DNA of 64,000 bases from Arthrobacter sp. V1I7 (lineage in GTDB: Bacteria; Actinomycetota; Actinomycetes; Actinomycetales; Micrococcaceae), in assembly GCF_030817015.1 (NCBI RefSeq), contig NZ_JAUSYS010000001.1:2542001-2606000 (forward strand), in the 5' to 3' direction. The translations under genes and the position numbers were made by a program. The notes below the pieces were generated by a model. That model ran no database searches. It was not told the origin of the DNA and saw only the letters and a list, made by a program, of their open reading frames with translations. Shown piece after piece: positions 23,253-38,723 of the stretch (the first letter of the stretch is position 1; every line of letters begins with the position of its first letter).

Positions 23253-24025
23253 GACTTGTCCATCAGGGCATAAACGCGGGCGGGACTGCCGGTCCCCCCG
23301 ACAATCGGCAGAGGGGAAACAATCAGGGTGGCACCCAGCACGGGAAGCTTGTCGACCTGGCGAAGGGACGTCACGCCGTACTTGTCCGCACCAAGTAGGA
23401 AGGAATGGACCGGGAACATGGGGTCGAAGCCGCCAGCTTGCCCCGCATCAATGCCGACAGTCTCCACCCCAAAGCCGCTGATGCTGTCATTCTTGGCTAT
23501 CCATTCGGCCCCTGCAGCCGAGACACCCGGCGTATGAGGTCCGGCCTCGTCCGAGTTGACGAAGTCCGCGGCGTTCCCGCCCCGGGCAGACCAACCGGTT
23601 CGGAAAATGATCCAGCAGTTCTCCGGAAGCGCGCCGTGTTCCTCTTGAAACTGCTCGAAGTGCTCAGGTTCCAGGAGAAAGTCCGGATTCTGTGCCACCG
23701 CCGCCGATTTGTCGATGACCACGAGGGGACCGACGAGGCGGGACGGCTCGATTTGATCCACGGATTTGCCGTCCCGGCCCGAGATCCAATGGATGGGAGC
23801 ATCCAGATGGGTACCCGCGTGCTCCCCAACACTGACGTCATTCCATGCCCATGCCGGTCCGGCATCGTCGAAGTTGCTCACCGGCGCAAGGCTGAGGCCA
23901 ACCGTGTTCGCGAAAGGCTCCGGCAGATTCAGTATCGGCGTGTCCCTGCTCAGAGGAGTTGTGAGGTCCACGATTTCGACCGAACCATCTCGGAGGGCTG
24001 TGACTAGCCCAGCTATTACAGACAT
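23249..24025 (-). CDS. Cyclase-family (kynurenine-formamidase-like) metal hydrolase
   Basis: A 258-residue protein with the signature H69-A-G-T-H73-L-D75-A-P-I-H79 (EHAGTHLDAPIHW), the metal-binding motif of the cyclase / KynB-type formamidase family. A second conserved part is VETVGIDAGQ followed by HSFLLG. These enzymes hydrolyse amides, formamides or lactone/isatin-type bonds. AGGAG at 24028-24033 supports the start at 24025. It is translationally coupled to the ThDP enzyme. In this context it may open a ring or cleave an amide before the oxoacid step. Confidence 0.85.
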   Translation of the reverse strand: MSVIAGLVTALRDGSVEIVDLTTPLSRDTPILNLPEPFANTVGLSLAPVSNFDDAGPAWAWNDVSVGEHAGTHLDAPIHWISGRDGKSVDQIEPSRLVGPLVVIDKSAAVAQNPDFLLEPEHFEQFQEEHGALPENCWIIFRTGWSARGGNAADFVNSDEAGPHTPGVSAAGAEWIAKNDSISGFGVETVGIDAGQAGGFDPMFPVHSFLLGADKYGVTSLRQVDKLPVLGATLIVSPLPIVGGTGSPARVYALMDKS

Positions 24026-24231
24026 TGTTCTCCTATTCAGTGGGATGATTCTAACCACACGATTGACGTTTTGTATCGCTTTTTTTGCGATCGACAGTAA
24101 ATGAGTACAAAGGTAGGCGGCAGCGCGCGTGCTCAGGCGCGTTCAGCCACGCATCCGACAGCCTGGAGCCGCCAGCGCAATGCGCTGGGACCAGGACCCA
24201 GCAGGGCAGGCAAGGACGCGTCAGGATCACA

Positions 24232-25197: not shown

Positions 25198-25988
25198 TTG
25201 ACTCCCTTGGATGTTACGAGTGCCGCGGCGGCGATTGCTCCGCGCGCGGATTTCAGGGTCTGTCCCGCTGCCTCAGCGAGGAAAACTACGTCAGCACCGA
25301 TAAGGTATAGCCGGACGCCTTCGGCAGAATACTTCTCCACCTGGGCTGGGGAGGAGCAAAATATTCCGGTAGGAACGCCGCACTGGGCAGCAGCGTTCAG
25401 AATCCGGGTGACAGCGGCAGCGTGCTGGGCGGACCCGGGACTTGTCCCCAATGAAACGGCCAGGTCACCGGGTCCGACAAAAATGACATCGATGCCCTCG
25501 ACGGCAGCAATCTCCTCGACGTTGGCCACACCGGCAGCTGTCTCAATTTGCAGGACGAGAAGGACGTCATCATTGGCTGTGGCCACATACTGCCCCATAT
25601 TGGCGCCGTACCGTGTCGCGCGTCCGGGCCCGGCTCCCCGGCCTCCCTCGGAGGGGTATCTCACCCGGGACACGGCTTCCCTGGCCTGGTCCACTGTTTC
25701 AATCCGGGGCACGACCACTCCCGCGGCGCCCCAATCCAGGACGCGGCCGATATCCTGGCCAAGTTCGGGAACGCGGACCAAGGCCGGCGTGCCAGTCACA
25801 TCGGCCGCGCGAATGAGCCCTTGTAGGTCGGCGACACCGAAAGCCGAGTGTTCGGCGTCCAGGCACAGCACCTCGTAGCCGCTCCAGCCAAGGATCTCCA
25901 CAGCTGTAGGACTGGAGATGCCTACGAAAGTGCCGATAAGGGGCCCTGCGGCCAGGCGGCCCGTCAGGTTGAGGGTTGTAGTGGTCAT
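25194..25988 (-). CDS. HpcH/HpaI-family class II aldolase
   Basis: A 264-residue TIM-barrel protein like 4-hydroxy-2-oxoheptanedioate and 2-keto-3-deoxy-sugar-acid aldolases. Seen motifs are LDAEHSAFG with the catalytic H47, LVRVPE with the substrate-binding Arg, LQIETAAGVANVEEI with a metal-ligand Glu, and VGPGDLAVSLG with the metal-ligand Asp. It should cleave a 4-hydroxy-2-oxoacid to pyruvate (or a relative) plus an aldehyde. The ATG at 25988 follows GGAAC and gives the family N-terminus; an upstream in-frame start at 26126 would overlap the regulator's promoter and is unlikely. First gene of the leftward operon. Confidence 0.88.
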   Translation of the reverse strand: MTTTTLNLTGRLAAGPLIGTFVGISSPTAVEILGWSGYEVLCLDAEHSAFGVADLQGLIRAADVTGTPALVRVPELGQDIGRVLDWGAAGVVVPRIETVDQAREAVSRVRYPSEGGRGAGPGRATRYGANMGQYVATANDDVLLVLQIETAAGVANVEEIAAVEGIDVIFVGPGDLAVSLGTSPGSAQHAAAVTRILNAAAQCGVPTGIFCSSPAQVEKYSAEGVRLYLIGADVVFLAEAAGQTLKSARGAIAAAALVTSKGVN

Positions 25989-26037
25989 CAAATGTTCCGT
26001 ATCTCTGTCAGTGGCTATGCGAGGATGGATGAAGGGG

Positions 26038-26056
26038 AATTGTCCACAGTCGCCAC
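26038..26056. promoter_or_regulatory. Putative GntR operator, copy 1
   Basis: AATTGTCCACAGTCGCCAC lies between the divergent aldolase and GntR starts. The same 19 bases with a single change occur at 28320-28338, upstream of the MFS gene. The TTGTCNACA core fits the operator type of FCD-domain GntR regulators. Function is inferred from position and recurrence. Confidence 0.7.
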
Positions 26057-26115
26057 TACCGCGAACTGATGAGGTTCCTTTGAAGGACTCCCGGGTGGGC
26101 AAAGTTGAGGAGATC

Positions 26116-26793
26116 ATGACAACCACGCACGGCTTCGCGCCTATTCGTCCGGGACTTCTTGTGACGCAGATTCACCAAAAACTCAGGGAAGCTATCTTGG
26201 ACGGGACCCTGCGCCCCGGTGACGCGCTCCGCGATTCTGTTATCGCCGAGCAAATGAAGGTCAGCCGGTCCCCGGTCCGCGAAGCGCTGCGCCTGCTCGA
26301 GGCCGCGGGACTCACCACCAAGGATCCGAACCGGTCGTATGTGGTCCTTGAATTTGGTGAAGATGATCTGAGGGAACTTGCCGGCATGCGGCTGGCCTAC
26401 GAGACCCTGGCAGTGCGACTCATAGTCCACTCGGACAAAGCTGTGGGTGATTTCTCCCTTCAGCTCAAGGCCCTCCGCGCCGCACTTACGTCCGGGTCGC
26501 AGGCCGCTATCGCCGCTGCCGACAGGGTCTTTCATAGCTCCTTGGTTGCGCTTTCCGGGAACAGCAGGCTGATCGAGGGCTACGGGCGGATTCAGGATCA
26601 AGTGGAACTCACTCTCATCAGTACCGACGCCCCCAACCGGGGATCAGACGGGATGGTGGAACGGCACGAACTTCTGGTGCAATTGCTGACTGAGGCCGCG
26701 TCGAGGGGGCAGTCGGGAGACGTTGTGGCTGAGCTCGAATCTCACATCCTCCAAGGGATGGGCTGTCCTTCGCTCCTGCCTCCATTGCACTGA
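26116..26793 (+). CDS. GntR-family regulator, FCD (FadR/VanR-type) subgroup
   Basis: A 225-residue regulator. The N-terminal winged HTH reads LREAILDGTLRPGDALRDSVIAEQ then SRSPVREALRLLEAAGLT, the textbook GntR signature. The C-terminal all-helical FCD domain follows (LRELAGMRLAYETLAVRLI, AADRVFHSSLVALSGN, ERHELLVQLLTEAASRG), with Asp/His positions that bind a metal and a carboxylate effector. The start at 26116 follows AGGAG closely. It is divergent from the aldolase operon and faces the MFS gene convergently. A shared operator suggests that it controls both. The likely inducer is an organic acid. Confidence 0.9.
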   Translation: MTTTHGFAPIRPGLLVTQIHQKLREAILDGTLRPGDALRDSVIAEQMKVSRSPVREALRLLEAAGLTTKDPNRSYVVLEFGEDDLRELAGMRLAYETLAVRLIVHSDKAVGDFSLQLKALRAALTSGSQAAIAAADRVFHSSLVALSGNSRLIEGYGRIQDQVELTLISTDAPNRGSDGMVERHELLVQLLTEAASRGQSGDVVAELESHILQGMGCPSLLPPLH

Positions 26794-26810
26794 CGAACTG
26801 AGCGTGCGAT

Positions 26811-26833
26811 GCCGCGCTCGATGCCGGCGCGGC
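26811..26833. terminator. Hairpin between convergent GntR and MFS genes
   Basis: GCCGCGC (26811-26817) pairs with GCGCGGC (26827-26833). A short T-run follows after CCG. It sits in the 69-bp gap between two converging genes. Confidence 0.5.
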
Positions 26834-26862
26834 ACCGCGTACCGTCTTTTAGGCTGACGCTT

Positions 26863-28149
26863 TTAGGCTGACGTCTGTGCGGAAACTACCGCGGGGAGAC
26901 TCTCATCTGTCTGCTGGCTCTCAGTCTTCGGCGATGCCATGCGTGCGGTAATGAACGTCAGGAGGCCGCCCAGGAGGATGGGAATTCCAAGGAGGGCAAG
27001 CCCAAGCTCAAACCCTCCAGTAAGGTCGCGCATCCATCCGTTCAGATACGGCCCAACGAAGCCACCCAGGTTGCCGAAGGAGTTGGCGAGGGCGGTCGCG
27101 GTCGCAGCCACAGCGCCGCTGACGTATGTCCGGGGAAGGGACCAAAATGCACTGGGGGCAGCGTAAACAGCCGTTGCAGCCACGCTCAGGAGCGCAAGGG
27201 CCAGGACCGGTTCCTTGGTATAGGCGCCGACGGCGAAGGCGAGACAGGCCGCGATGCACGGAATTACGGTGTGCCAGATCCGTTCCCCGGTTTTGGAGGA
27301 GTGCCGGCCCCACAGGACCATGCCGACGGCAGCCGCCGCAAACGGAATGGCCGTTAGCCAGCCAGTGAGGCCAACGTCAGCGCCCAAGGACTTGATTACC
27401 TGCGGCAGCCACAGGACCAGGGCATAGCTGCTGGTCATGATCAGGAAATACTGGAGGCACATCAGCATGGTTTGCGGATCGCGAAGAGCTTTCACCCATG
27501 AAACGTGCTCGGTGGGCTTTGCAACTGCGGAACGAAGAGCAACTTTCTCCTCTGCCGTCAGCCATTTCGCATCCTCGATGCTGTCCGGAAGTATCCGCAG
27601 GACTACAAAGGCCAGAATGATTGCGGGAATACCTTCAACCACGAAGACCCACTGCCAACCCCAGGCAGACATGATGGCCGTGGCCAGGGGTGCGCCGACG
27701 GCGTTGGCCAGTGGGCCGAAAGCGAAGAAAGTGGCCAGGACCTTGGCAATATTTTTCTGGTCAAACCACTGGTAGAGGAAGAACACCACTCCAGGGAAGA
27801 AGCCTGCCTCGGCGGCCCCTAAAAGGAAACGGAAGATATAGAACGTCGTCTCGTTGCTGATGAAGTACATGGCCATCGAGATGACACCCCAGGTGATCAT
27901 GATCCGTGCGATCCAGCGGCGGGCACCATACTTTGCCAGTGCCAGGTTGCTGGGAACTTCGAACAAAAAGTACCCGATGAAGAAGATGCCTGCGCCGAAG
28001 CCGTACGCCGCAGCCGACATGCCGATATCTGCATTCATGGTCAGTGAAGCGACACTTACGTTGGTGCGGTCAATGATGCTGATGAAGAAACAGATACCCA
28101 GGAGCGGAATTAGCCTTTTGATGGCCTTCCGGGTGGCAATGGCTTGCAT
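26863..28149 (-). CDS. MFS transporter, ACS (anion:cation symporter) family
   Basis: A 428-residue, twelve-helix permease. Features are ISIIDRTNVSVASLTM in helix 1, the loop 2-3 motif LAKYGARRWIARIMITWG and GAAEAGFFPGVVFFLYQWF in helices 4-5, which are characteristic of the ACS family that imports tartrate, glucarate, phthalate and similar organic acids with H+. It most likely imports the acid degraded by the ThDP/aldolase/dehydrogenase genes. A copy of the putative GntR operator lies about 170-190 bp upstream. No ribosome binding site problem is seen. Confidence 0.9.
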   Translation of the reverse strand: MQAIATRKAIKRLIPLLGICFFISIIDRTNVSVASLTMNADIGMSAAAYGFGAGIFFIGYFLFEVPSNLALAKYGARRWIARIMITWGVISMAMYFISNETTFYIFRFLLGAAEAGFFPGVVFFLYQWFDQKNIAKVLATFFAFGPLANAVGAPLATAIMSAWGWQWVFVVEGIPAIILAFVVLRILPDSIEDAKWLTAEEKVALRSAVAKPTEHVSWVKALRDPQTMLMCLQYFLIMTSSYALVLWLPQVIKSLGADVGLTGWLTAIPFAAAAVGMVLWGRHSSKTGERIWHTVIPCIAACLAFAVGAYTKEPVLALALLSVAATAVYAAPSAFWSLPRTYVSGAVAATATALANSFGNLGGFVGPYLNGWMRDLTGGFELGLALLGIPILLGGLLTFITARMASPKTESQQTDESLPAVVSAQTSA

Positions 28150-28681: not shown

Positions 28682-29542
28682 TCACGCGCCCAGAACGGAA
28701 CGTGCGTACCGCTGTGCCTTTGGGCCCAACAAGGAGTGCACTTTGGCAAAAAGCGCCTCGGCGGCCAGTCCCGACCAGCCCTCGGGAAGATATTCCTCCG
28801 GCAGTCCCGGGTCCAAATACGGAAGCCGGCGCCATTGGGTCACGGTGGGCACGTAGTCGCTGAACGCCTGCCTCAGCTGCTCAGGGGTTTCTGGTTCCTC
28901 GGCCCGGCCACCGGCCCATCGCACCAGGACATCCTGGTGGCGGACCAGAAAGTCCGAGTAGAGGGCGTCGAGAGCGGGCAAGTCCCACCACTGGCCCACC
29001 TTTGCCCGGATGTTCCCCTCGCCCATGCGGGCTGCCCTGAAGAGATCCACGTATTCCATCAGCCCGGCACGATCCAACTGTTGGGCGATCTCGCTGCCAA
29101 GACTGCCGGGCGCTATCCACAAGCCCGGGGATACCTGTCCGCAGCCCATCCGCGTCAAAATGGTGCGCAGTTTGTGGCGCAGGTGCCGCTGTGACTCCGG
29201 CACCGAGAATGAGGTCAGAATCCAGTCGTCACCTTTGATGGCCCGCCGAGGAGAAAAAATGCGCTCGTCCCCGGCTTTGAATACTTCTTCGAGTCCGGGG
29301 GCGAGACTGTACGCGGCAGAGCCTCCCTGCTTCAGGCTGACCAGGACGCCGCGTTTCTTGAGCCTGGAGACCGAGGACCGTACGCCGGCTGACTCGACAC
29401 CCAGATCGCTGAGCAGGCGGATCAGGTCCGAGACGGCGAGGACGCCGCCGTGTTCCCTGGCGTAGAGCCCATAGACGGTCACGATCAGGTGCTGGTGCCG
29501 CGGCATCGGGGCCAAATCGGGAACGGTATCTGTGGAAGCCAT
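28682..29542 (-). CDS. PaaX-family transcriptional regulator
   Basis: A 286-residue protein of PaaX type. The N-terminal winged HTH is LIRLLSDLGVESAGVRSSVSRLKKRGVLVSL. The middle domain contains GQVSPGLWIAPGSLG, the family hallmark, and the C-terminal domain includes LPEEYLPEGWSGLAAEALF. PaaX represses phenylacetate genes and is released by phenylacetyl-CoA; relatives answer to other aryl-CoA thioesters. Here the next genes make and use an aryl-CoA, so an aryl-CoA ligand is likely. It is divergent from the thioesterase gene, and a candidate operator lies between them. Confidence 0.88.
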   Translation of the reverse strand: MASTDTVPDLAPMPRHQHLIVTVYGLYAREHGGVLAVSDLIRLLSDLGVESAGVRSSVSRLKKRGVLVSLKQGGSAAYSLAPGLEEVFKAGDERIFSPRRAIKGDDWILTSFSVPESQRHLRHKLRTILTRMGCGQVSPGLWIAPGSLGSEIAQQLDRAGLMEYVDLFRAARMGEGNIRAKVGQWWDLPALDALYSDFLVRHQDVLVRWAGGRAEEPETPEQLRQAFSDYVPTVTQWRRLPYLDPGLPEEYLPEGWSGLAAEALFAKVHSLLGPKAQRYARSVLGA

Positions 29543-29639
29543 TCAGCACCTCGGGTCGGTCGGAGTTGGGCGGCCGGCGCCTCCCAATTCCAGACGCTGC
29601 GGGCTTTCGTTTCAGCTGATGACACGGCTGTGGCACCAT

Positions 29640-29655
29640 GGAAACGGTCGTCACA
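29640..29655 (-). promoter_or_regulatory. Putative PaaX operator, site 1
   Basis: On the minus strand the site reads TGTGACGACCGTTTCC. The core TGTGACGNYCGT recurs at 30693 and 37235, each in a promoter region of this catabolic cluster. It lies between the divergent regulator and thioesterase genes. Confidence 0.6.
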
Positions 29656-29706
29656 CACTTTACATAATAACCGGAGGGTCCACACCTCCACAGGTCTGGG
29701 AGCGCC

Positions 29707-30153
29707 ATGACAGCACGAACTCCATCGGTGGCAAACGCCAGCATCGACCGCACGGTTGAGTGGGTAGACACTGATGCCTCGGGGCATCAGCATAATTCTG
29801 CGGTTATGCGGTGGGTTGAGGCGGCCGAGGCTGAGCTCATGCGGAATCTCGGCCTGCCTGACTACTTTCCCAGCGCGCCCCGAGTCCACCAGGAGATCTC
29901 CTACAGGTCAAAACTCTGGTTCGGTCAGCTGATCACGGCGTCCATTGAAGTACAAAAGCTCGGCCGGACATCCCTGACGTATGCCTTCGAAGTCCGGGGC
30001 CACACCCACCCGAAGTCGAACGCGGGCATCGCCGCCTTCGGTACAGTCACGGTGGCCCATGTGCCGCCTGGATTCGAAAAATCGCAGCCGTGGCCGCACG
30101 ACCTCGTTGAAGCCGTCAATGCTCTGATGGCAGCCGCCGCCCCCGCGTCCTAG
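29707..30153 (+). CDS. Hotdog-fold acyl-CoA thioesterase (4HBT family)
   Basis: A 148-residue single-hotdog protein. The segment VEWVDTDASGHQHNSAVMRWVEAAEAELM matches the 4-hydroxybenzoyl-CoA thioesterase family, where Asp of the DxxGHxxN-type motif is catalytic. It should hydrolyse an aromatic or ring-derived CoA thioester. In the Streptomyces salicylate route via gentisyl-CoA a thioesterase releases the free hydroxylated acid; this gene could play that part. It is the first gene rightward of the putative PaaX site. Confidence 0.85.
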   Translation: MTARTPSVANASIDRTVEWVDTDASGHQHNSAVMRWVEAAEAELMRNLGLPDYFPSAPRVHQEISYRSKLWFGQLITASIEVQKLGRTSLTYAFEVRGHTHPKSNAGIAAFGTVTVAHVPPGFEKSQPWPHDLVEAVNALMAAAAPAS

Positions 30154-30217
30154 AGGCAGGAAAGCCCGGCGCCGGAGCCCGACGCCGGCACGCCCGGCTC
30201 CTGTATACCGGAAGGGA

Positions 30218-30613
30218 TCAGCGTTCCGCTATTACCGCGATGCCCTGGATTTCGATCAGTGCTTCCTTCTGCCAGAGCCTGGTAACTCCGATGCCAGCCA
30301 TGGCGGGGTACTCAGACCCGGCCATTTCCCGCCAGATCCGGCCTATCTCGCGGCCGTTGGCCATGTAGTCCTCGACGTCGGTGAGGTAGATCGTGACGCT
30401 GACTAGGTCCTGTGACTGCCCTCCCGCCGCGGCCAGCGTGGTCAGCACATTGGAAAACGCCTGCCGGAACTGCTCCACAATGCCGCCCTCAACAATCTTC
30501 ATGTCCTTGTCGAGCGCTGTCTGCCCGCCGAGGAAAACCGTGTTTCCGGACAGGATGCCGTGGGCATATCCGGACGGCTTGGGCAGCGAATCGGGGTTGA
30601 TGGTCCTGTTCAC
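30218..30613 (-). CDS. RidA/YjgF/Rid-family protein
   Basis: A 131-residue trimer-forming Rid protein (NTVFLGGQTALDKDMKIVEGG, FSNVLTTLAAAGGQSQDLVSVTIYLTD, GVTRLWQKEALIEIQGIAVI). An Arg in the late GVTRL segment is near the position used by RidA for carboxylate binding. Rid proteins hydrolyse reactive enamines and imines to ketones plus ammonia, and some act as aminomuconate deaminases. It is divergent from the FAH-family gene across a putative PaaX site. In this cluster it may remove the amino group from a dearomatised 2-amino compound. Confidence 0.87.
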   Translation of the reverse strand: MNRTINPDSLPKPSGYAHGILSGNTVFLGGQTALDKDMKIVEGGIVEQFRQAFSNVLTTLAAAGGQSQDLVSVTIYLTDVEDYMANGREIGRIWREMAGSEYPAMAGIGVTRLWQKEALIEIQGIAVIAER

Positions 30614-30692
30614 AGTGTTCTCCTGAATCGGCTTGTTACTGGCGTCAAAAAAGCACTATTCAGATCTTCTCTGCCGTGCTACCTTGAGCATA

Positions 30693-30708
30693 TGTGACGA
30701 TCGTAATA
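30693..30708 (+). promoter_or_regulatory. Putative PaaX operator, site 2
   Basis: TGTGACGATCGTAATA contains the 8-bp palindrome ACGATCGT. It lies 32 bp upstream of the FAH-family start and in the divergent promoter of the RidA gene. Confidence 0.62.
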
Positions 30709-30739
30709 AAGTCGATATATAGATTAGAGGAACTGGCAG

Positions 30740-31633
30740 ATGAAACTGGCCACACTGAGAACCAGTGAAAACGGCACGACGGCGGCCCTTGCCGTGGGCG
30801 TAGAGTCCTACTTGCCCCTGCCGTATCCGAACGTTGGAACGCTCCTCGAGGACCCCGACTGGCGGAATACCGTGAAGGCAACGGCAGATGCAGGGCCGGA
30901 CGACGCGGGCTTCATTGAGGCCTCCGCGGCTTCACTTGCTCCGCTTCTGCCTACGGCCAGGAAGGTCATCTGCTGCGGGCTGAACTACGGCGACCACATC
31001 CGGGAAATGGGGCGTGACCTCCCCGAATACCCGACGCTATTCGCCAAATACGCGGACACGCTGACGGGCGCATCCGACACCATCACCGTCCACGGCAGCG
31101 ACCGCGTCGACTGGGAAGCCGAGCTGGCCGTAGTCGTCGGCGCCCAGCTCTTTCGCGCGGACGAGACGGAGGCCCGGGCCGCGATCGCGGGCTATACCGT
31201 TGCCAACGATGTCTCCATGCGGGACTGGCAAAACCGGACCCTCCAGTGGTTCCAAGGCAAGGCCTTCGACGCCACAACCCCCGTGGGCCCGGTAATGATT
31301 ACCCCAGACGAGGCCGGCACTTCGTTTGACGTAAAGGGCTACGTCAACGGCGAACTGGTCCAGAGCGGCAATACCTCAACACTGGTCTTCGGGCCCGCGC
31401 AGCTGCTCTCCTACATTTCCCGGTTCACTTTGCTCCGGCCCGGGGACCTGGTCCTCACCGGGACGCCAGGCGGGGTGGGAATGGGCATGAAGCCCCCACG
31501 ATTCCTGCGCGACGGTGATGTCCTCACCACGGAGATCGCCGGCATCGGAACCTTGCAGAACACCGTCCGCATCCATCAGCCCACCGGCACCGAAGCCCGC
31601 ATGCCGGTCGCAGCCACCAGCACCAAGGAATGA
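30740..31633 (+). CDS. Fumarylacetoacetate hydrolase (FAH) family protein
   Basis: A 297-residue enzyme. The catalytic domain starts with KVICCGLNYGDHIREMG and contains VDWEAELAVVVG (metal-ligand Glu residues), NDVSMRDWQNRTLQWFQGKAF and LLRPGDLVLTGTPGGVGMG, the standard FAH motifs. These Mg2+ enzymes cleave C-C bonds of acylpyruvates (fumarylpyruvate, maleylpyruvate) or isomerise and decarboxylate hydroxymuconic products. It heads the rightward operon ending with the fused monooxygenase, so it should act on the ring-opened product. GAGGAAC precedes the ATG. Confidence 0.92.
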   Translation: MKLATLRTSENGTTAALAVGVESYLPLPYPNVGTLLEDPDWRNTVKATADAGPDDAGFIEASAASLAPLLPTARKVICCGLNYGDHIREMGRDLPEYPTLFAKYADTLTGASDTITVHGSDRVDWEAELAVVVGAQLFRADETEARAAIAGYTVANDVSMRDWQNRTLQWFQGKAFDATTPVGPVMITPDEAGTSFDVKGYVNGELVQSGNTSTLVFGPAQLLSYISRFTLLRPGDLVLTGTPGGVGMGMKPPRFLRDGDVLTTEIAGIGTLQNTVRIHQPTGTEARMPVAATSTKE

Positions 31634-31638
31634 AGATC

Positions 31639-32121
31639 ATGACCGATACCATCACCGAATACCTGACCGATGGCGACAACTCGATCTACGCCGGCGCCGA
31701 TGGGCGCGTTGTCCCCGTGGTCACGAAGGCCGGACAGGAAGACACCAATACAGCCCAATCCGGGGACTGCGTCCGCATTTCAGGGGTCTCCATCCAGCAC
31801 ACTCCGGCTACGAAGATCTGGTTCGGCCAGGTGTCCAATGTTCCCGGCTACCGTTCCCTGCCCCACCACCATGGGGAGGCAGAGACCGGCGGTTACGTCC
31901 TGCGCGGCCACGGCCGAATCTATTACGGTGAAAACTACTCCGAATACCAGGACATGAAAGCCGGTGACTGGGTTTTCGTGCCCCCCTTCATGCCGCACGT
32001 TGAGGCGAACATGTCCGTGACCGAGGAATTGGTGTGGCTCACCGCCCGCACTCCGGAGAACATTGTCGTCAACCTGGTCGACGTCGCCGACGACTCCCTC
32101 GTCGATTACCGCAGGGCATAA
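31639..32121 (+). CDS. Cupin-domain protein, possible ring-cleavage or isomerase enzyme
   Basis: A 160-residue single-cupin protein. Motif 1 is PHHHGEAETGGYVLRGHGRIYYG (three consecutive His and two Glu available as metal ligands); motif 2 is AGDWVFVPPFMPHVEANM. A divalent metal is therefore likely bound. At this size it resembles 3-hydroxyanthranilate-type or small extradiol cupin dioxygenases, not the two-cupin gentisate dioxygenase of about 350 residues. Its place between the FAH-family and thioesterase genes fits ring cleavage of the hydroxylated product, but a sensor or isomerase role is possible. AAGGA 9 nt upstream favours 31639 over the ATG at 31630. Confidence 0.8.
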   Translation: MTDTITEYLTDGDNSIYAGADGRVVPVVTKAGQEDTNTAQSGDCVRISGVSIQHTPATKIWFGQVSNVPGYRSLPHHHGEAETGGYVLRGHGRIYYGENYSEYQDMKAGDWVFVPPFMPHVEANMSVTEELVWLTARTPENIVVNLVDVADDSLVDYRRA

Positions 32122-32127
32122 ACGACG

Positions 32128-33033
32128 ATGATTCCTGCATCCCCGGCAGTCAAAGCACCGACCTCCGAGAACTTCCTGCGGGCCATCGAACTCACGCCTG
32201 TCCCGGCACAGCATGCGGACGAGGCCTACGAGGCAGTGACGCAATACGTGCCATGGCCCAAGTCATACGGCGGCGACATGGTGGCCCAGTCCACCGCTGC
32301 CATGATGCGCTCCGTCCAGTCGGACCGCAGCCTGCATTCGATGCACAGCTACTTCATGAGGCCCGTGGACATTGAGTCGAGCGTCAGGTACGAGGTGGAG
32401 CGCCTGCGGGACGGCCGCGGGTATTCCACCCGCAGCGTCCGCGGCTACCAGAACGGAAAAATTGTCTTCGCGGCGATGGGCTCTTTCCACGTGCGGGAAG
32501 ATGGCCCGGACTTCCAAACCGCCTCCCCAGCCGTTGTTGAACCCGGGTCCCTCCGTTCAGCCGCCGATGCCCTCGAGGATACAGCCGGTGCAGCCGCTGA
32601 CTACTGGTCTGCCGGCCGGAGCTTCGACATGCGCCACGTTCCGGGTCCCCTCTACGTGCAGGTCGAAGGCGAAAGCCAGCCACACCAGGCCGTCTGGGTG
32701 AAAGCTTTTGACCGCTTGCCCGACGGCGACGACGCCTACGCAACAGCTAACCTGCACCGCACCGCCCTGGCGTACGTTTGCGATTACACCATCCTGGAAC
32801 CGCTGCTGCGGGTCAATGACCTGCACTGGTCCTCTCCGGGACTGAGCACGGCCAGCTTGGACCATTCCATGTGGTTCCACCGTGATGGCCGCGCGGACGA
32901 ATGGATCCTCTACGTGCAAGAAGCCGTTTCGGTCCAAAACAACCGCGGGTTGGCGCTGGGCCGTTTTTTCTCCAAGGACGGCAGCCTGCTCGCCACGGTG
33001 GCCCAAGAAGGCATGATTCGTCAGGCTTCCTGA
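32128..33033 (+). CDS. TesB-type acyl-CoA thioesterase II
   Basis: A 301-residue double-hotdog thioesterase. It shows YGGDMVAQSTAAMMRSVQSDRSLHSMHSYFMRP near the N-terminus (strand and helix of the first hotdog) and SLDHSMWFHR with NNRGLALGRFFSKDGSLLATVAQEG in the second hotdog, as in TesB. It should hydrolyse CoA esters. Why the cluster carries two unrelated thioesterases is unclear; they may act at different steps or recover CoA from dead-end thioesters. It follows the cupin gene by 6 nt. Confidence 0.88.
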   Translation: MIPASPAVKAPTSENFLRAIELTPVPAQHADEAYEAVTQYVPWPKSYGGDMVAQSTAAMMRSVQSDRSLHSMHSYFMRPVDIESSVRYEVERLRDGRGYSTRSVRGYQNGKIVFAAMGSFHVREDGPDFQTASPAVVEPGSLRSAADALEDTAGAAADYWSAGRSFDMRHVPGPLYVQVEGESQPHQAVWVKAFDRLPDGDDAYATANLHRTALAYVCDYTILEPLLRVNDLHWSSPGLSTASLDHSMWFHRDGRADEWILYVQEAVSVQNNRGLALGRFFSKDGSLLATVAQEGMIRQAS

Positions 33034-33072
33034 CACCAACCCAACTCATCAGACGCACTGAAAGGAGTGGCC

Positions 33073-34731
33073 ATGACACCAGCATCCTCAGCCCACGTGG
33101 ACACCTTTACCCGTGACCACCTGCCGCCCACCGAATTGTGGCCGACCCTCGAGTTCACGTTGCCGGAACTCCAGTACCCCGAGGTGCTCAACGCCGGGGC
33201 TGTGCTAATCGATGACGCAGTAACAGAACACGGGCCGGACCGTCCCGCGCTCCACACCCCCTACGGAACAACCTGGACCTACGGCGAGCTCCAAAAGCGG
33301 GCTAACCAGGCAGCCCAGGTCCTCACTGAAGACTTCGGAGTGGTGCCCGGAAACCGGGTCCTTCTCCGCGGACCCAACAACCCGTGGATCGTAGCGGCCT
33401 GGCTGGGCGTGCTGAAAACCGGCGCCGTGGTTGTCACCACCATGCCCATACTCCGGTCCTCCGAGGTAGCCACCCTGATTGGGCTCACCAGGCCTGTCCT
33501 GGCGATTTCTGACCATCGTTTTATGGATGAACTGGTACTGGCAGCAGTCGACGGCGTGACTGTTGTACCGTACGGCGGGCCCGGTGAAGATGACTTCATC
33601 GCCCGCTGCGCGGCCAAGAGCGGAAAGTTCACCAATGTGGAAACAGCGGCCGACGACGTCGCGCTCCTGGGCCCCACGTCAGGGACCACGGGCGCGCCGA
33701 AGGTCACCATGCACTTCCACCGTGACATCCTCGCCAATGCTGATACATTTGCCCGCCACATTCTCCAGCCCACCGCCGAGGATGTCTTTGCGGGTTCACC
33801 TCCCATCTCGTTCACTTTCGGGCTCGGGGGACTTGTAGTTTTCCCGTTGCGGTTCGGAGCCTCCTCACTCCTTACCGAACGCGCCGCCCCCGTGGAGCTC
33901 GCTGAACACGCGGCCGCAGCTGGTGTCACCATCCTCTTCACTGCACCCACCGCCTACCGCGCGATTCTCAAAGCCGGCCGGGGGGAGCTCCTTTCCCGCC
34001 TCAGGGTTGCGGTCTCCGCCGGCGAACATCTGCCGAAGGAAACATGGGAGGCCGTATACAATGCCACCGGCGTCCGTCTGGTCAATGGCATCGGGTCCAC
34101 TGAGCTGCTCCATGTCTTCATTTCCGCAGCGGGAGATGACATCCGGCCAGGTACCACGGGTGTGCCCATCCCCGGCTACCGTGCCACGATCCTGGACGAT
34201 GACGGCAACGAGGCTGGCCCCAACGAGGCCGGCAGGCTGGCGGTTGTTGGCCCCACCGGGTGCCGTTACCTTGCCGACGAACGGCAGTCCAAATATGTGG
34301 TCAATGGCTGGAACGTCACCGGTGACACTTTCACCCAGGATGAAGAAGGCTACTTCACGTATCAGGCCCGGTCCGACAACATGATCATCTCCTCCGGGTA
34401 CAACATCGGCGCCCCCGAGGTTGAAGCCGCGATCGACCAGCACCCTGACGTCGTCGAAAGCGCCGTGGTTGCCCGGCCGGACCAGGAACGCGGCAGCGTG
34501 GTTTGCGCCTTCATCGTGCTGCGCGAGGGCGTGGATGCAGATGATGCCAAACGCAAGGAAATCCAGGACTTCGTCAAAGCGACCATAGCTCCCTACAAAT
34601 ACCCGCGGGATGTCCGGTTCACGTCTGAACTTCCCCGCAACCCCAGCGGCAAGCTGCAGCACTTCAAGCTGCGTGACTGCCTCGAACTCGAAAACGACCA
34701 GCTGGCCGGCGTCGCCGCCAACCGGCCCTAG
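33073..34731 (+). CDS. Aryl-CoA ligase (2-aminobenzoate/benzoate/salicylate-CoA ligase type)
   Basis: A 552-residue ANL-superfamily adenylating enzyme. The P-loop TSGTTGAPKVTMHFHRD lies near residue 200. GIGSTELLHVFIS is the aromatic-binding A5 region, GDTFTQDEEGYFTYQARSDNMIISSGYNI the A7-A8 hinge, and NPSGKLQHFKLRD supplies the catalytic C-terminal Lys. The HFHRD and GSTELLH segments are typical of benzoate/2-aminobenzoate-CoA ligases. It activates an aromatic acid with ATP and CoA to start the pathway. AAAGGAG 6 nt upstream selects the ATG at 33073. The fused monooxygenase follows after 13 nt. Confidence 0.9.
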   Translation: MTPASSAHVDTFTRDHLPPTELWPTLEFTLPELQYPEVLNAGAVLIDDAVTEHGPDRPALHTPYGTTWTYGELQKRANQAAQVLTEDFGVVPGNRVLLRGPNNPWIVAAWLGVLKTGAVVVTTMPILRSSEVATLIGLTRPVLAISDHRFMDELVLAAVDGVTVVPYGGPGEDDFIARCAAKSGKFTNVETAADDVALLGPTSGTTGAPKVTMHFHRDILANADTFARHILQPTAEDVFAGSPPISFTFGLGGLVVFPLRFGASSLLTERAAPVELAEHAAAAGVTILFTAPTAYRAILKAGRGELLSRLRVAVSAGEHLPKETWEAVYNATGVRLVNGIGSTELLHVFISAAGDDIRPGTTGVPIPGYRATILDDDGNEAGPNEAGRLAVVGPTGCRYLADERQSKYVVNGWNVTGDTFTQDEEGYFTYQARSDNMIISSGYNIGAPEVEAAIDQHPDVVESAVVARPDQERGSVVCAFIVLREGVDADDAKRKEIQDFVKATIAPYKYPRDVRFTSELPRNPSGKLQHFKLRDCLELENDQLAGVAANRP

Positions 34732-34744
34732 TAAGGAGCAGACC

Positions 34745-37138
34745 GTGAAGATCGCAATCGTCGGAGGCGGCCCCGGAGGCCTGTACTTCGCAGCACTGAT
34801 GAAACAGCTGGACCGCTCCCACGACATCACTCTCTGGGAGCGCAACGCTGCCTCGGACACCTTTGGATTCGGCGTCGTCTTTTCCGACGAAACCCTCGGC
34901 GGCATCGGCAATGCAGACCCGGTGGTTGCCGAGTACATGAGCCGAAGGTTTGCCCGGTGGTCCGACATCGACATCCACTTCCGCGATGAAATCCTGACTG
35001 TCGGCGGCCAGGGGTTCGCCGCGATGAGCCGCAAGGAGCTGCTGGAACTGCTGCAGCGCCGGTGCGCCGAACTGGGCGTGGACGTCCGCTTCAGCACGCC
35101 TGCACCGCCCATCGCCGACCTCGAGGCTGGCTATGACCTGGTGCTCGCCTCAGACGGCATCAACTCGCAGATCCGGGCAACCTATGCGGAGTCGTTCGGC
35201 CCCAGCCTGGACCCCCGGCCCAACAAATTCATGTGGCTCGGCACCGACCAGGTGTTCGAAGCGTTCAAGTTCTTCGTCAAGGACACCGAATACGGCACCA
35301 TGCAGATCCACGGCTATCCCTACTCCGACGAAGGCTCAACCTTCATCGTGGAAATGTCGCCTGACGTTTGGGAGGCCGCCGGCTTCGACGAGACCGCGGC
35401 GGACGTGTTCGCCCCCGGGGTGTCGGACGAGAAGGCCATCAGCAAAATCCGCGCCATTTTCGCTGACGAACTCGCAGGCCACGAAGTACTGGCCAACAAC
35501 TCCAAGTGGCTGAACTTCACAACGGTCAAGAACCGCAGCTGGCGTCACGGGAATATCGTGCTGCTGGGCGATGCCGCGCACACAGCCCACTTCTCCATCG
35601 GATCCGGCACAAAGCTCGCCATGGAAGATTCCCTTGCCTTGGCCGCCTGCCTCCACGAGCACCAGGACCTCGAAGCCGCCCTTGCGGCCTACGAGACCGA
35701 GCGACGTCCCGTCGTCGAATCCACCCAACGTGCCGCCCAGGCGTCGCTGGAGTGGTTCGAACGGATCGGACAGTACAAAGGCCAGGAGCCCACGCAGTTT
35801 GCGTTCAACCTGCTCACCCGCTCGCGCCGGATCACCCAGGAAAACTTGCGCCTGCGCGACCCGGAATTCGCAGAAACGGTGGACCGCAAATTCGCCGAAG
35901 CCCAGGGGTTGCCGGACATCGCCCCGGCGATGTTCCAGCCTCTCCGCATTGGCGGGCTGGAGCTCAAGAACCGTGTGGTTGTCTCCCCCATGGACATGTA
36001 CTCCGCCGTCGACGGCATGCCCGGGGACTTCCACATGGTCCACCTCGGCTCCAAGGCACTCGGCGGCGCCGGCCTGGTGATGACCGAAATGGTCTGCGTG
36101 TCAGCCGAAGGGCGCATCACCCCCGGCTGCTCGGGCATCTACACCGACGAACAGCGCGACAACTGGAAATCCATCGTTGAGTTTGTCCACGTCCGCTCAA
36201 CGGCGAAAATCGGCGTGCAGCTCGGCCACTCCGGCCGTAAAGGCTCCACCCGGCTCATGTGGGAAGGTATCGACCAACCCCTGGAGAGCGGCAACTGGGA
36301 GACCGTCGGTCCGTCGGCACTGCCCTACGGCCCGGGTAACCACGTCCCCCGTGAAATCAGCCAGGCCGAAATGGAGAGCGTCAAGGCTGACTTCGTCGCT
36401 TCCGCGCAACGGGCAGACGAGGCCGGCTTCGACCTGCTTGAGGTCCATGCGGCCCACGGATACCTGCTCTCGTCCTTCCTCTCCCCCATCTCCAACCAGC
36501 GCACCGACGAGTACGGCGGCAGCCTCGAGAACAGGCTGCGCTTTCCCCTCGAAGTCTTCGACGCCGTGCGCGCAGCATGGCCCGCGCACAAGCCGCTGAC
36601 AGTGCGCATCTCGGCAACAGACTGGATCGAGGGCGGAAACTCCTCGGACGACGCAATCGTGATTGCCCAGGCATTCGTCGATCACGGCGCCGCGGCCATC
36701 GATGTCTCCACGGGGCAGGTGGCCAAAGAGGAAAAGCCCGCCTTCGGCAGGAGCTATCAGACCCCGTTCGCCGACCGGATCCGGCAGGAGGTGGCCGCCC
36801 CCGCCGGAGTTGCCGTCATTGCCGTCGGAGCCATCTCCACCTACGACGACGTCAACTCAGTCCTGCTCGCAGGCAGGGCCGATCTCGTGGCACTGGGCCG
36901 CACACACCTGTACGACCCGCATTGGACCCTTCACGCCGCGGCAGAGCAGGAATATCAGGGCTCAGGCTCGCAGTGGATCCCCCAGTTCGGGGCGGGCCGC
37001 CGCAAGCCACCGAGCGCCCGGACCGATGCCGTGCGCCCGCGGCTGTCCCTGCTCAGGGAACCAGAGTCCATCGCACCGGACGGCCACCTGCGCTGGACGC
37101 GGGGCATCACCGCTACTGAGCCGGTACTTGCCCAATAG
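34745..37138 (+). CDS. Fused FAD monooxygenase / old-yellow-enzyme reductase (2-aminobenzoyl-CoA monooxygenase-reductase or salicylyl-CoA 5-hydroxylase type)
   Basis: A 797-residue two-domain flavoprotein. Residues 1-390 are a class A flavin monooxygenase: IVGGGPGGLYFAALMKQL, LASDGINSQIR and LGDAAHTAHFSIGSGTKLAMED. Residues from about 395 are an old-yellow-enzyme domain: FQPLRIGGLELKNRVVVSP, GVQLGHSGRKGS, DLLEVHAAHGYLLSSFLSP and RTDEYGGSLENR. This fusion is known from 2-aminobenzoyl-CoA monooxygenase/reductase, which hydroxylates and then dearomatises the ring; salicylyl-CoA 5-hydroxylase is a close relative. The aryl-CoA ligase just upstream supplies the thioester. The GTG start at 34745 has AAGGAG 6 nt upstream. 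RidA in the cluster favours an amino substrate; the cupin and FAH favour ring cleavage. Confidence 0.9.
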   Translation: MKIAIVGGGPGGLYFAALMKQLDRSHDITLWERNAASDTFGFGVVFSDETLGGIGNADPVVAEYMSRRFARWSDIDIHFRDEILTVGGQGFAAMSRKELLELLQRRCAELGVDVRFSTPAPPIADLEAGYDLVLASDGINSQIRATYAESFGPSLDPRPNKFMWLGTDQVFEAFKFFVKDTEYGTMQIHGYPYSDEGSTFIVEMSPDVWEAAGFDETAADVFAPGVSDEKAISKIRAIFADELAGHEVLANNSKWLNFTTVKNRSWRHGNIVLLGDAAHTAHFSIGSGTKLAMEDSLALAACLHEHQDLEAALAAYETERRPVVESTQRAAQASLEWFERIGQYKGQEPTQFAFNLLTRSRRITQENLRLRDPEFAETVDRKFAEAQGLPDIAPAMFQPLRIGGLELKNRVVVSPMDMYSAVDGMPGDFHMVHLGSKALGGAGLVMTEMVCVSAEGRITPGCSGIYTDEQRDNWKSIVEFVHVRSTAKIGVQLGHSGRKGSTRLMWEGIDQPLESGNWETVGPSALPYGPGNHVPREISQAEMESVKADFVASAQRADEAGFDLLEVHAAHGYLLSSFLSPISNQRTDEYGGSLENRLRFPLEVFDAVRAAWPAHKPLTVRISATDWIEGGNSSDDAIVIAQAFVDHGAAAIDVSTGQVAKEEKPAFGRSYQTPFADRIRQEVAAPAGVAVIAVGAISTYDDVNSVLLAGRADLVALGRTHLYDPHWTLHAAAEQEYQGSGSQWIPQFGAGRRKPPSARTDAVRPRLSLLREPESIAPDGHLRWTRGITATEPVLAQ

Positions 37139-37234
37139 AGCGCCGAGCCAGCTGCTGCGCGGCGAGCCCTTGTTTCAGCATGATTACCGCTGCGGAAACT
37201 CTGCAATTCGTCGTCGCGAGGCCTATTGCATTTC

Positions 37235-37250
37235 TGTGACGCCCGTTATG
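37235..37250 (+). promoter_or_regulatory. Putative PaaX operator, site 3
   Basis: TGTGACGCCCGTTATG shares the TGTGACGNYCGT core with sites at 29640 and 30693. It lies about 100 bp upstream of the aromatic-acid transporter gene. Confidence 0.55.
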
Positions 37251-37352
37251 TTCAATACATAGCGGACGTCACCTCCAAGGGTTTGCAAGGTTTCAGACCT
37301 ACGTCCACTCCCCGGCGCTTCAGTCACCATTCACAACCACCGAAGGACTTTC

Positions 37353-38723
37353 ATGGCTGCGTTGAACCACACCCAATGGCCCGTTCCACCGAAAACCACC
37401 AACCGCGTTTTGCTCGCCTGCTGGCTAGCCATCCTTGCGGAGGGCTACGACGTCGGCGTCCTGGGCGCCATCATTCCTGCCCTCGCCGAGTACAAGGAAT
37501 GGGACCTCAGCCCGCTCGAGCTCGGCGGACTGGGTTCCTACGCCCTGGTTGGGATGCTGATCGGTGCCATGACAATCGGCACCCTCTCAGACCGCGTCGG
37601 CCGTAAAAACATGCTGCTGCTGTCCGTGCTGATCTTCACCTCCACACAGCTGGGCGCGGCTTTGGCGACCACCCCGGAAATCTTCGGCTTGTTCCGCTTC
37701 GTGGGCGGCCTGGGCATGGGTGGCATCATTCCTGTTGCCGCCGCACTCACCATCGAATATTCAGCCCCCAAACGCCGGTCCTTCAACTACGGCATCATGT
37801 ACTCCGGCTACTCGTTCGGAATTCTCGCTGCCGCACTGGTCGCCCTCGCACTGCTGCCGACGCTCGGCTGGCGCTGGGTAATCGGCGTGGGGTTCATTCC
37901 CATCCTGCTCATCCCGGTCCTGGCCTGGATACTTCCGGAGTCCCTTGAGTTCCTGATGAGCAAGGGCCGCCGCGCTGAGGCGCAGCGCCTTGCGGGCAAG
38001 CTGGGCGTCACACCGTTCGTCGACAACGACTGGGCACCGGTACCGGTTGCCGGCGCAGCTCTAAAGCCCGTGGGTTGGAAGCAGTCCCTGATGGCTCTCT
38101 TTTCCCGCGACTACATCCGGCCCACCGTCTTCTTCTGGGTTTCCCTGTTTTGCGGCATGGTCCTCGTCTACGGTCTCAACACATGGCTGCCGACCATCAT
38201 GCGGAAGGCCGGCTACGACCTTGGCTCATCCCTGACGTTCCTTGCAGTCTTCAGCCTCGCCTCGGCCATCGGTGGCATGGTCCTGGGCAAAGCCGCCGAT
38301 GTCTACGGCAAGAAGCTCATCCTCGTCCTCTTCTACGCCATTGGCGGCGTGGGCATCCTGCTGCTGATGTTCCCGAACAACATCTTCATCAACTACGTTT
38401 TCGTCGCACTCGCTGGCGTGGGCTCGATCTCGACGTCCCTCGTCCTCACAGGCTGGGTAGCCGATTACTATCCCTCCTACGCCCGGGCAACGGCCACCGG
38501 CTGGGCCCTGTCCTTCGCGCGCATCGGAGCGATTTCCGGACCCCTGATCGGCGGCTGGATCGGATCAGCACAACTTCCGTTCCAGTGGAACTTCATCGTC
38601 TTCGCATTCGTGGCGCTCCTGGCCGCCGGCGCCGTCGCGATAATCCCTCGAACACCCGGTTCAACGCCCGGCATCATCACACACGCGGCAGACGAGCTCG
38701 AACCCACCAGCGCAAAACAATGA
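37353..38723 (+). CDS. AAHS-family aromatic acid:H+ symporter (MFS)
   Basis: A 456-residue, twelve-helix MFS permease. WLAILAEGYDVGVLGAIIPAL in helix 1 carries the Asp used by AAHS carriers for aromatic acid uptake. GTLSDRVGRKNMLL is the loop 2-3 motif, and RFVGGLGMGGIIPVAAALTIEYSAPKRRSF follows in helix 4-5. PcaK, BenK and VanK belong to the same family. It most likely imports the aromatic acid that the nearby ligase activates. It starts a separate transcript with its own putative PaaX site and ends at a strong hairpin. Confidence 0.93.
   Translation: MAALNHTQWPVPPKTTNRVLLACWLAILAEGYDVGVLGAIIPALAEYKEWDLSPLELGGLGSYALVGMLIGAMTIGTLSDRVGRKNMLLLSVLIFTSTQLGAALATTPEIFGLFRFVGGLGMGGIIPVAAALTIEYSAPKRRSFNYGIMYSGYSFGILAAALVALALLPTLGWRWVIGVGFIPILLIPVLAWILPESLEFLMSKGRRAEAQRLAGKLGVTPFVDNDWAPVPVAGAALKPVGWKQSLMALFSRDYIRPTVFFWVSLFCGMVLVYGLNTWLPTIMRKAGYDLGSSLTFLAVFSLASAIGGMVLGKAADVYGKKLILVLFYAIGGVGILLLMFPNNIFINYVFVALAGVGSISTSLVLTGWVADYYPSYARATATGWALSFARIGAISGPLIGGWIGSAQLPFQWNFIVFAFVALLAAGAVAIIPRTPGSTPGIITHAADELEPTSAKQ

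Follow-up and report, generated by a model that had tools for sequence, protein, structure and literature searches.

In the 2-aminobenzoyl-CoA pathway of Azoarcus evansii, the product of the 2-aminobenzoyl-CoA monooxygenase/reductase (ABMR), a fusion of an FAD monooxygenase and an OYE-type reductase, passes after dearomatisation to beta-oxidation, the only fate that the accessible text of PMC4539516 gives for the ABMR product. A ligase encoded on the quinaldine plasmid pAL1/pARUE113 of Arthrobacter sp. Rue61a has measured activity on anthranilate and is reported to form anthraniloyl-CoA, and the available sections of the same study leave the steps after ABMR open (PMC3534580). Our literature search, which did not cover the pAL1 sequence or MeqR2 papers, found no description of an ABMR pathway ending in a cupin and an FAH-superfamily hydrolase. 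Here, we describe such a cluster in Arthrobacter sp. V1I7, at 28682-38723 of the window (the whole 64 kb stretch of DNA analysed), and suggest, with the chances about evenly balanced, that it takes in anthranilate and degrades it via a 'reduced gentisate' route.

Every gene that an earlier note on this DNA had named in the cluster lies where the note had placed it, and Pfam and NCBIfam matches confirm the fused monooxygenase-OYE protein, RidA, cupin, FAH hydrolase, two thioesterases and ligase:

28682-29542, minus strand: PaaX-family repressor (Pfam PaaX, PaaX_M and PaaX_C)
29644-29655, minus strand: candidate PaaX operator TGTGACGNNCGT, between paaX and the hotdog gene
29707-30153, plus strand: 4HBT hotdog thioesterase with an ATG start (PF03061, 31.6 bits; TIGR00051 below its cut-off)
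30218-30613, minus strand: RidA-family enamine/imine deaminase (PF01042, 84.5 bits)
30693-30704, plus strand: candidate PaaX operator, between ridA and the FAH gene
30740-31633, plus strand: FAH-superfamily hydrolase, a predicted acylpyruvase acting on succinylpyruvate (PF01557, 222.5 bits)
31639-32121, plus strand: 160-residue single-domain metal cupin, a predicted ring-cleaving dioxygenase (Cupin_2)
32128-33033, plus strand: TesB-type acyl-CoA thioesterase (PF02551/PF20789/PF13622)
33073-34731, plus strand: AMP-dependent ligase, by orthology an anthranilate-CoA ligase (83% identity to the pAL1 ligase)
34745-37138, plus strand: ABMR, FAD monooxygenase-OYE fusion (NF006101), with a GTG start and AAGGAG upstream
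36446-36463, plus strand: intact OYE catalytic motif His568-x-x-His571-x-Tyr573, from alignment with solved OYEs
37235-37246, plus strand: candidate PaaX operator, upstream of the transporter
37353-38723, plus strand: aromatic acid/H+ symport (AAHS)-like MFS transporter (PF07690; TIGR00895 298.1 bits, under its 418.55 cut-off)

The cluster is not unique. Plasmid pAL1 was already known to carry this gene set, and there ridA (on the minus strand), FAH, cupin, tesB, ligase and ABMR stand in the same order at 72-88% identity, or 66-88% for the whole set when PaaX and the hotdog enzyme (66%) are included. In V1I7, paaX and the hotdog gene are found upstream of ridA, whereas their counterparts lie downstream of ABMR in pAL1, which has a further PaaX gene upstream and lacks the AAHS-like transporter that follows ABMR in V1I7. 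What appears unassigned in the accessible literature is the part after ABMR.

MeqR2, the pAL1 repressor, reportedly responds to anthraniloyl-CoA, and the V1I7 PaaX repressor, 73% identical to the PaaX protein of the pAL1 cluster, probably senses the same compound; it would regulate the cluster in answer to this CoA thioester. The operator pattern has three matches in 64 kb against 0.16 expected, and one of 100 shuffles reaches three, a count to be read with the fact that the pattern was first spotted by eye in the very three sites later counted. A TGTGACGNNCGT site is also present between ridA and FAH in pAL1 (L001:13048).

Anthranilate is well supported as the substrate of the cluster, and the CoA-dependent anthranilate degradation that had been proposed is borne out by the pAL1 ligase orthologue and by the neighbours of other cluster copies. 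The published ligase primers match the pAL1 locus (L001) at 15430 and 17063, and this cluster adjoins the genes for conversion of quinaldine to anthranilate. Other copies adjoin aqd alkylquinolone genes, a tryptophan dioxygenase and kynureninase-like gene, or kynU; a kynureninase and/or tryptophan dioxygenase neighbours 4 of 44 cupin-type loci (the window left out), 2 of 90 beta-oxidation-type and 0 of 8 gentisate-type loci, numbers too small for statistics. No such upper pathway in the form of a quinaldine-oxidase cluster was found among the 20 proteins examined upstream and downstream in the window, where neither the genes at 1467-6643 (Rieske oxygenase, reductase and BCCT) nor MoaA (6964-8091) make up such a cluster. 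Salicylate, the other substrate considered earlier, is not supported, since the reductase half of ABMR is intact and Rue61a, in the available sections of the study, does not grow on salicylate (PMC3534580). When grown on anthranilate, and only then, Rue61a is described there as forming a C7H8O4-CoA ester, as would be expected of a ring that has been reduced and deaminated, and a hydroxyanthraniloyl-CoA-like ester was likewise detected (PMC3534580); these esters cannot be attributed to the plasmid cluster because the Rue61a chromosome encodes another route for anthranilate.

A key finding from our comparison of 160 non-redundant ABMR loci is that the same start leads to alternative endings, a conclusion that is well supported. 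The cupin is present in 45 loci, an acyl-CoA dehydrogenase (ACAD) and/or enoyl-CoA hydratase (ECH) in 90, a classical gentisate dioxygenase (GDO) in 8, and none of these in 17, and in none of the 160 does the cupin occur together with an ACAD/ECH or GDO ending. TesB accompanies the cupin in 41/45 loci, compared with 0/90 beta-oxidation-type, 0/8 gentisate-type and 1/17 unassigned loci. The thioesterase step foreseen in the earlier note is supported. FAH is found in 38/45 cupin-type and 8/8 gentisate-type loci and in 1/90 of the beta-oxidation type; the remaining seven cupin loci have no FAH nearby, and the six of their genomes that were searched encode FAH proteins at 42-51% identity elsewhere. 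RidA tracks the presence of the amino group (44/45 cupin-type, 77/90 beta-oxidation-type and 1/8 gentisate-type loci), and its suggested role as the pathway deaminase is probable. The cupin label has to change four times on the ABMR tree, so the endings have seemingly been exchanged more than once, which in turn suggests a common intermediate. In Alphaproteobacteria the copies have no TesB and include additional SDR genes for which the proposed scheme has no use, a point against it. A cupin in a beta-oxidation cluster of Ruegeria pomeroyi, considered as a counter-example, could not be recognised as a relative (29% over 52 residues, E 0.013, two-sequence comparison).

Measured against these endings, the V1I7 cluster shares with the Azoarcus form the ligase, RidA and an ABMR with an intact reductase half, and carries cupin, FAH and TesB in place of the acyl-CoA dehydrogenase and enoyl-CoA hydratase. 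As the earlier note had said, Pfam and NCBIfam profiles detect neither beta-oxidation genes nor a gentisate dioxygenase among the cluster's genes. The salicylyl-CoA/gentisate clusters (L065, L076, L098, L075, L172, L173 and L175), which we take to be of the sdg type, encode an ABMR-like protein, FAH (7/7) and a ligase (5/7), but have a bicupin GDO instead of the small cupin, no detected RidA, and a reductase half without the catalytic Tyr.

The V1I7 ABMR scores 1220.6 bits against NF006101, 'bifunctional salicylyl-CoA 5-hydroxylase/oxidoreductase' (cut-off 1078); the catalytic residues for ring reduction are present in it, and reductase activity is predicted from them. The OYE His-His-Tyr triad is kept in 45/45 cupin-type and 90/90 beta-oxidation-type loci, while the Tyr is gone in seven of the eight GDO loci, namely the seven clear gentisate-type ones, although these represent few lineages and the difference was first noticed in 16 sequences and counted afterwards. 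In the eighth (L038), the GDO is 35% identical and lies 8.2 kb from ABMR, and the two are probably separate loci. This contrast suggests that in cupin-type loci the cupin probably meets a ring that has already been dearomatised and deaminated.

The 'reduced gentisate' route would thus run as follows. The ligase would convert anthranilate to anthraniloyl-CoA, as published for its pAL1 orthologue, and ABMR would yield a hydroxylated, dearomatised ring, which would then be deaminated: RidA may hydrolyse the enamine, releasing ammonia and leaving 2,5-dioxocyclohexanecarboxyl-CoA. With O2, the cupin would cut this cyclic beta-dicarbonyl between C1 and C2 to give 2,4-dioxopimelyl-CoA, an acylpyruvate, a cut modelled on those by Dke1 of beta-diketones and by gentisate dioxygenase of gentisate. 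Removal of CoA by TesB, or by the hotdog enzyme before cleavage, would give succinylpyruvate, which FAH would split into pyruvate and succinate. Compared with the Azoarcus pathway, the same intermediate would be cut oxygenatively instead of entering beta-oxidation. The cupin reaction and the end products are inferred, as are the steps assigned to RidA, TesB and FAH.

The cupin is probably the ring-cleaving enzyme, with O2-dependent C-C cleavage predicted. Its residues His76/77/78, Glu82 and His120 are kept in 45/45 cupin-type loci, and a structure model built from a more diverse alignment (pLDDT 88.8) has the cupin fold; an earlier model from close relatives (pLDDT 47.3) was discarded. Dke1, a 153-residue cupin described in the accessible text as acting on beta-diketones (PMC4019311), shares with it the single small domain, the His-x-His...Glu...His motif and the proposed reaction type, although the substrate proposed for V1I7 is a cyclic beta-keto thioester and Dke1, like GDO, is absent among the 45 PDB sequences matching the cupin at E up to 0.1, an absence that excludes nothing. 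Fold matches include, among many others, the small cupin dioxygenases quercetinase and 2,4'-dihydroxyacetophenone dioxygenase, but many functionally unrelated cupins score similarly and no single function is picked out; nor does the lack of gentisate dioxygenase and Dke1 among the 50 matches listed per fold comparison show anything.

An alternative that we regard as unlikely, if worth serious attention, is hydrolytic ring opening, in which FAH or some other enzyme would act on the beta-diketone and the cupin would serve as a decarboxylase, an isomerase or a cyclase-like enzyme. The cupin's sequence profile is nearest to oxalate decarboxylase (1e-7) and to sugar-phosphate isomerase cupins, reaching 3-hydroxyanthranilate dioxygenase weakly, and RemF cyclase and hydroxynitrile lyase are among its fold matches; such matches, however, are generic for cupins. 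The V1I7 FAH protein has the metal-site carboxylates and the lid HxxE (NYGDHIREM), its PDB relatives include the acylpyruvase FAHD1 and maleylpyruvate hydrolase, and HxxE marks acylpyruvases. It also speaks against hydrolytic opening that characterised FAH enzymes mostly require an acylpyruvate-like head, which only an oxygenative C1-C2 cut would supply here.

It is rather improbable that the cupin cuts a ring that is still aromatic, with 5-hydroxyanthraniloyl-CoA deaminated to gentisyl-CoA or freed as the acid, and the resulting maleylpyruvate hydrolysed by FAH. FAH (8/8) and the hotdog thioesterase (5/8) are indeed common to gentisate-type loci, and the available sections of the Rue61a study describe 5-hydroxyanthraniloyl-CoA arising under limiting NADH and, for Rue61a, the hydroxyanthraniloyl-CoA-like ester and cometabolic conversion of 5-hydroxyanthranilate, but also no growth on gentisate or 5-hydroxyanthranilate (PMC3534580). 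On chemical grounds, an aromatic amine would not be an enamine that RidA readily hydrolyses, and the reductase half is intact in every cupin-type locus, with Tyr573 missing in the clear gentisate-type ones. Ring cleavage by the cupin, as the earlier note had it, is probable, whereas its cutting of aromatic 5-hydroxyanthranilate or gentisate is unlikely.

That beta-oxidation genes elsewhere finish the ABMR/RidA product, leaving cupin, FAH and TesB to detoxify dead-end products, is very improbable: cupin and FAH genes do occur paired at loci without ABMR, and Nocardioides L037 has RidA, FAH, TesB, ligase and ABMR with no cupin found in its genome, which also counts against the 'reduced gentisate' route, but cupin and ABMR-linked ACAD/ECH are mutually exclusive (0 of 160 loci), the V1I7 genome holds one full ABMR, and all five of the operator-like sites that lie beyond the cluster fall within ORFs (171-705 codons), a weak point as two in-cluster candidates overlap chance ORFs of 180-186 codons.

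Searches of the host genome (5.03 Mb, 2 contigs, completeness 100, the cluster on contig 1) gave a single NF006101 match over the cut-off, besides six partial ones, and a single cupin match. The best TIGR02272 (gentisate 1,2-dioxygenase) match in this genome reaches 22 bits, against 324 bits for the genuine enzyme of L065, in agreement with the earlier claim that a classical gentisate dioxygenase is missing. Cupins of this family (E up to 1e-45) occur in 11 of 394 genomes of the class, and their adjacency to ABMR is not chance, because 10 of these 11 genomes, among them that of the window, have an ABMR within 3 kb of the cupin.

It is tempting to generalise, though we do so tentatively and at somewhat less than even confidence, to a further arene-CoA ending in which the ring is hydroxylated, dearomatised and deaminated, after which a small single-domain cupin dioxygenase of a new class cuts the cyclic beta-ketoacyl-CoA; anthranilate would give pyruvate and succinate via succinylpyruvate as a dihydro mirror of the gentisate pathway, and in Actinomycetota and Alphaproteobacteria this module would have been swapped repeatedly with the one for beta-oxidation. 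'Salicylyl-CoA 5-hydroxylase', the name assigned automatically, spans at least three neighbourhood types, which the OYE motif and RidA help to separate. The cupin ending occurs in many Actinomycetota and also in some Alphaproteobacteria, frequently on plasmids, and our comparison names the genes of this different ending and leads to definite predictions of its intermediates and end products. If the proposal is true, a non-aromatic ring of the beta-keto thioester kind would be cut oxygenatively, a further ring-cleavage reaction, and RidA would gain a catabolic role.

Within the window lies a single, compact cluster of catabolic genes, comprising paaX (minus strand), a hotdog thioesterase gene (plus), ridA (minus), and six plus-strand genes for an FAH hydrolase, a 160-residue single-domain metal cupin, TesB, a CoA ligase, a 2-aminobenzoyl-CoA monooxygenase/reductase (ABMR), in which an FAD monooxygenase is fused to an Old Yellow Enzyme (OYE) reductase, and an AAHS-like transporter. 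Every gene named in the earlier note is present, confirming the content and place that it described. Only 5 bases separate the FAH stop from the cupin's likely start, and 6 bases the cupin stop from tesB, while the ligase and ABMR genes are each preceded by an AAGGAG-type ribosome site. A neighbouring minus-strand cluster (21576-28149) encodes a ThDP enzyme, a PF04199 cyclase, a D-2-hydroxyacid dehydrogenase, an HpcH/HpaI aldolase and an MFS protein, with a GntR regulator opposite. Integrase and transposase genes upstream of the catabolic cluster (8601-9506, 12340-13431, 18137-19435 and 19814-21208) suggest that this region is mobile or rearranged.

This cluster adds a member to an already known type, that of pAL1, the quinaldine plasmid of Arthrobacter sp. 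Rue61a, which carries the same gene set without the transporter and whose proteins are 72-88% identical to those of the window, the hotdog protein excepted (66%). The pAL1 cluster adjoins genes converting quinaldine to anthranilate, and other copies adjoin alkylquinolone (aqd) genes, tryptophan dioxygenase and a kynureninase-like gene, or kynU. Excerpts of one study report that the Rue61a ligase gene ARUE_113p00220, when expressed, formed anthraniloyl-CoA (PMC3534580), and both published primers for this gene match the pAL1 ligase gene. The same excerpts describe growth on anthranilate and none on gentisate, salicylate or 5-hydroxyanthranilate, cometabolic conversion of 5-hydroxyanthranilate, and, in anthranilate-grown cells only, two CoA esters, one of C7H7NO3 (presumed to be hydroxyanthraniloyl-CoA) and one of C7H8O4 (PMC3534580). 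Because a second anthranilate route is encoded on the Rue61a chromosome, the growth and CoA-ester results cannot be assigned specifically to the plasmid cluster. Taken together, the anthranilate-generating neighbours and the pAL1 ligase and growth data make anthranilate the most likely substrate. A kynureninase-like gene in the window's genome (G000:C1:3000529-3001482; 209 bits, under the 246 cut-off) is a possible internal source. The copy in Arthrobacter sp. ERGS1:01 (L012, 6600-14458) looks decayed; its PaaX, FAH and TesB match in pieces only, and a second cupin copy lies on another plasmid.

The pattern TGTGACGNNCGT, first spotted by eye and then counted, has three matches in the 64 kb against 0.16 expected (three were reached by 1 of 100 shuffles), all in promoter regions of the cluster (paaX/hotdog, ridA/FAH and transporter). 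As a partly independent check, the 28 kb fetched from pAL1 was scanned, and the pattern recurs there in the corresponding ridA/FAH gap and in three further positions (0.06 expected, 0/100 shuffles). Across the window's whole genome, a slightly extended version of the pattern matches eight times (the three in the cluster, five others) versus once for a reversed control. Each of those five falls within an ORF (171 to 705 codons), which says little because chance ORFs of 180-186 codons likewise enclose two of the three sites in the cluster.

To place the cluster among its relatives, 160 ABMR loci, window included, were kept after dropping three near-identical ABMRs. They came from plasmid records (14 loci, 10 found via the cupin and hence biased), from the best 80 of 590 in a scan that used aligned cupin-type ABMRs as the query (biased to that type), and from 68 ABMR copies in 394 genomes spread over the class and not chosen by cupin. 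The cupin was present at 45 loci, acyl-CoA dehydrogenase and/or enoyl-CoA hydratase (examples were assigned to these families by Pfam) at 90, a bicupin gentisate dioxygenase at 8 (the example at locus L065 scoring 324 bits with TIGR02272, under the 442 cut-off), and none of these at 17; at none of the 160 did the cupin occur with either other ending. The class-wide sample alone, duplicates still in, gave 9, 43, 3 and 13 of 68. ABMR was found in 66 of the 394 genomes and the cupin (E up to 1e-45) in 11, in 10 of which it lay within 3 kb of ABMR.

The accompanying genes differ by ending. FAH accompanies 38/45 cupin, 1/90 beta-oxidation and 8/8 gentisate loci, TesB 41/45, 0/90 and 0/8, and RidA 44/45, 77/90 and 1/8. 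The single cupin-type RidA miss is a truncated 8-kb contig, and 9 of the 13 beta-oxidation-type misses are stretches under 14 kb. The sole gentisate-ending locus with RidA, L038, is probably not truly of that type, its dioxygenase being 35% identical and 8.2 kb from ABMR. The 17 loci with no recognised ending (L108 and L109 among them) have RidA in 10, FAH in 2 and TesB in 1, and may use a fourth ending, have their genes scattered, or be truncated. A different 150-residue cupin, within a beta-oxidation-type ABMR operon of Ruegeria pomeroyi DSS-3 (L105:13538-13990) near tryptophan dioxygenase, had no recognisable kinship to the window cupin on comparison. In a FastTree phylogeny of the 160 ABMRs, four changes of the cupin label are needed and starred branches force four (the 17 no-ending rows uncounted; the tool warns that long branches make such stars less reliable), so exchange of the pathway ending has probably happened more than once.

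Across the His-x-x-His-x-Tyr motif, whose Tyr is the proton donor in OYEs, the reductase half of ABMR can be aligned with Old Yellow Enzymes of solved structure. His568, His571 and Tyr573 are kept in every cupin-type (45/45) and beta-oxidation-type (90/90) locus, and in 16 of the 17 no-ending loci, L174 instead having Gln and Phe. In the seven clear gentisate-type loci, which represent few lineages, Tyr573 is replaced by His, Gln or Phe and His568 by Gln in five, a difference seen first in 16 sequences and counted afterwards. This is the pattern expected if the gentisate type keeps the ring aromatic and the cupin type reduces it, as the Azoarcus (beta-oxidation) type does. The earlier interpretation is partly supported: a CoA-dependent anthranilate pathway is likely, but the intact OYE motif speaks against a cut of the still-aromatic ring by the cupin.

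We postulate a "reduced gentisate" route, which would give every catalytic gene of the cluster a task. The ABMR product would be an enamine, the kind of compound hydrolysed by RidA enzymes, and RidA would turn it into 2,5-dioxocyclohexanecarboxyl-CoA, a cyclic beta-dicarbonyl and the CoA ester of a C7H8O4 acid. According to excerpts of PMC4019311, the 153-residue cupin Dke1 uses O2 to split beta-diketones, and the bond that gentisate dioxygenase breaks in gentisate is the one joining C1 to C2. The same C1-C2 cut by the cupin would yield 2,4-dioxopimelyl-CoA, thioester hydrolysis would give succinylpyruvate, and FAH would split this acylpyruvate, a kind of substrate of FAH-superfamily hydrolases, into pyruvate and succinate. 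The sharing of FAH by both ring-cutting cupin types, and its near absence from beta-oxidation loci, counts for this route. That TesB is nearly restricted to cupin-type loci agrees with a CoA ester of open-chain form, although the four Alphaproteobacterial cupin loci, which have no TesB, are at odds with this.

The cupin is likely an active metalloenzyme, since its metal ligands are conserved in 45/45 cupin-type loci; its reaction we infer from pathway logic. Among its PDB sequence matches, its profile is nearest oxalate decarboxylase, and neither Dke1 nor gentisate dioxygenase appears; the fold predicted for it (pLDDT 88.8) resembles those of cupins with many different functions. In Nocardioides sp. 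SLBN-35 (L037, 6090-12349), RidA, FAH, TesB, ligase and ABMR occur, but no cupin was found at the locus or elsewhere in the genome, implying either a broken pathway or another enzyme for the cupin step. Seven cupin loci have no nearby FAH, and FAH proteins 42-51% identical occur elsewhere in all six genomes searched of these.

Cupin and FAH genes are also paired in the absence of ABMR, in two cases alongside a separate alkene reductase. At L002:8875-10423, L008:8992-13089, L010:5762-13085 and L011:7241-9411, cupin-family and FAH genes, variously with an SDR or alkene reductase, stand in stretches lacking ABMR and CoA ligase, perhaps as a free-standing module for other reduced rings. Such pairs suggest that members of the cupin family may act on related substrates with reduced rings. 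Taken as a whole, the pAL1 type represents a 2-aminobenzoyl-CoA pathway variant whose ending is different and testable.
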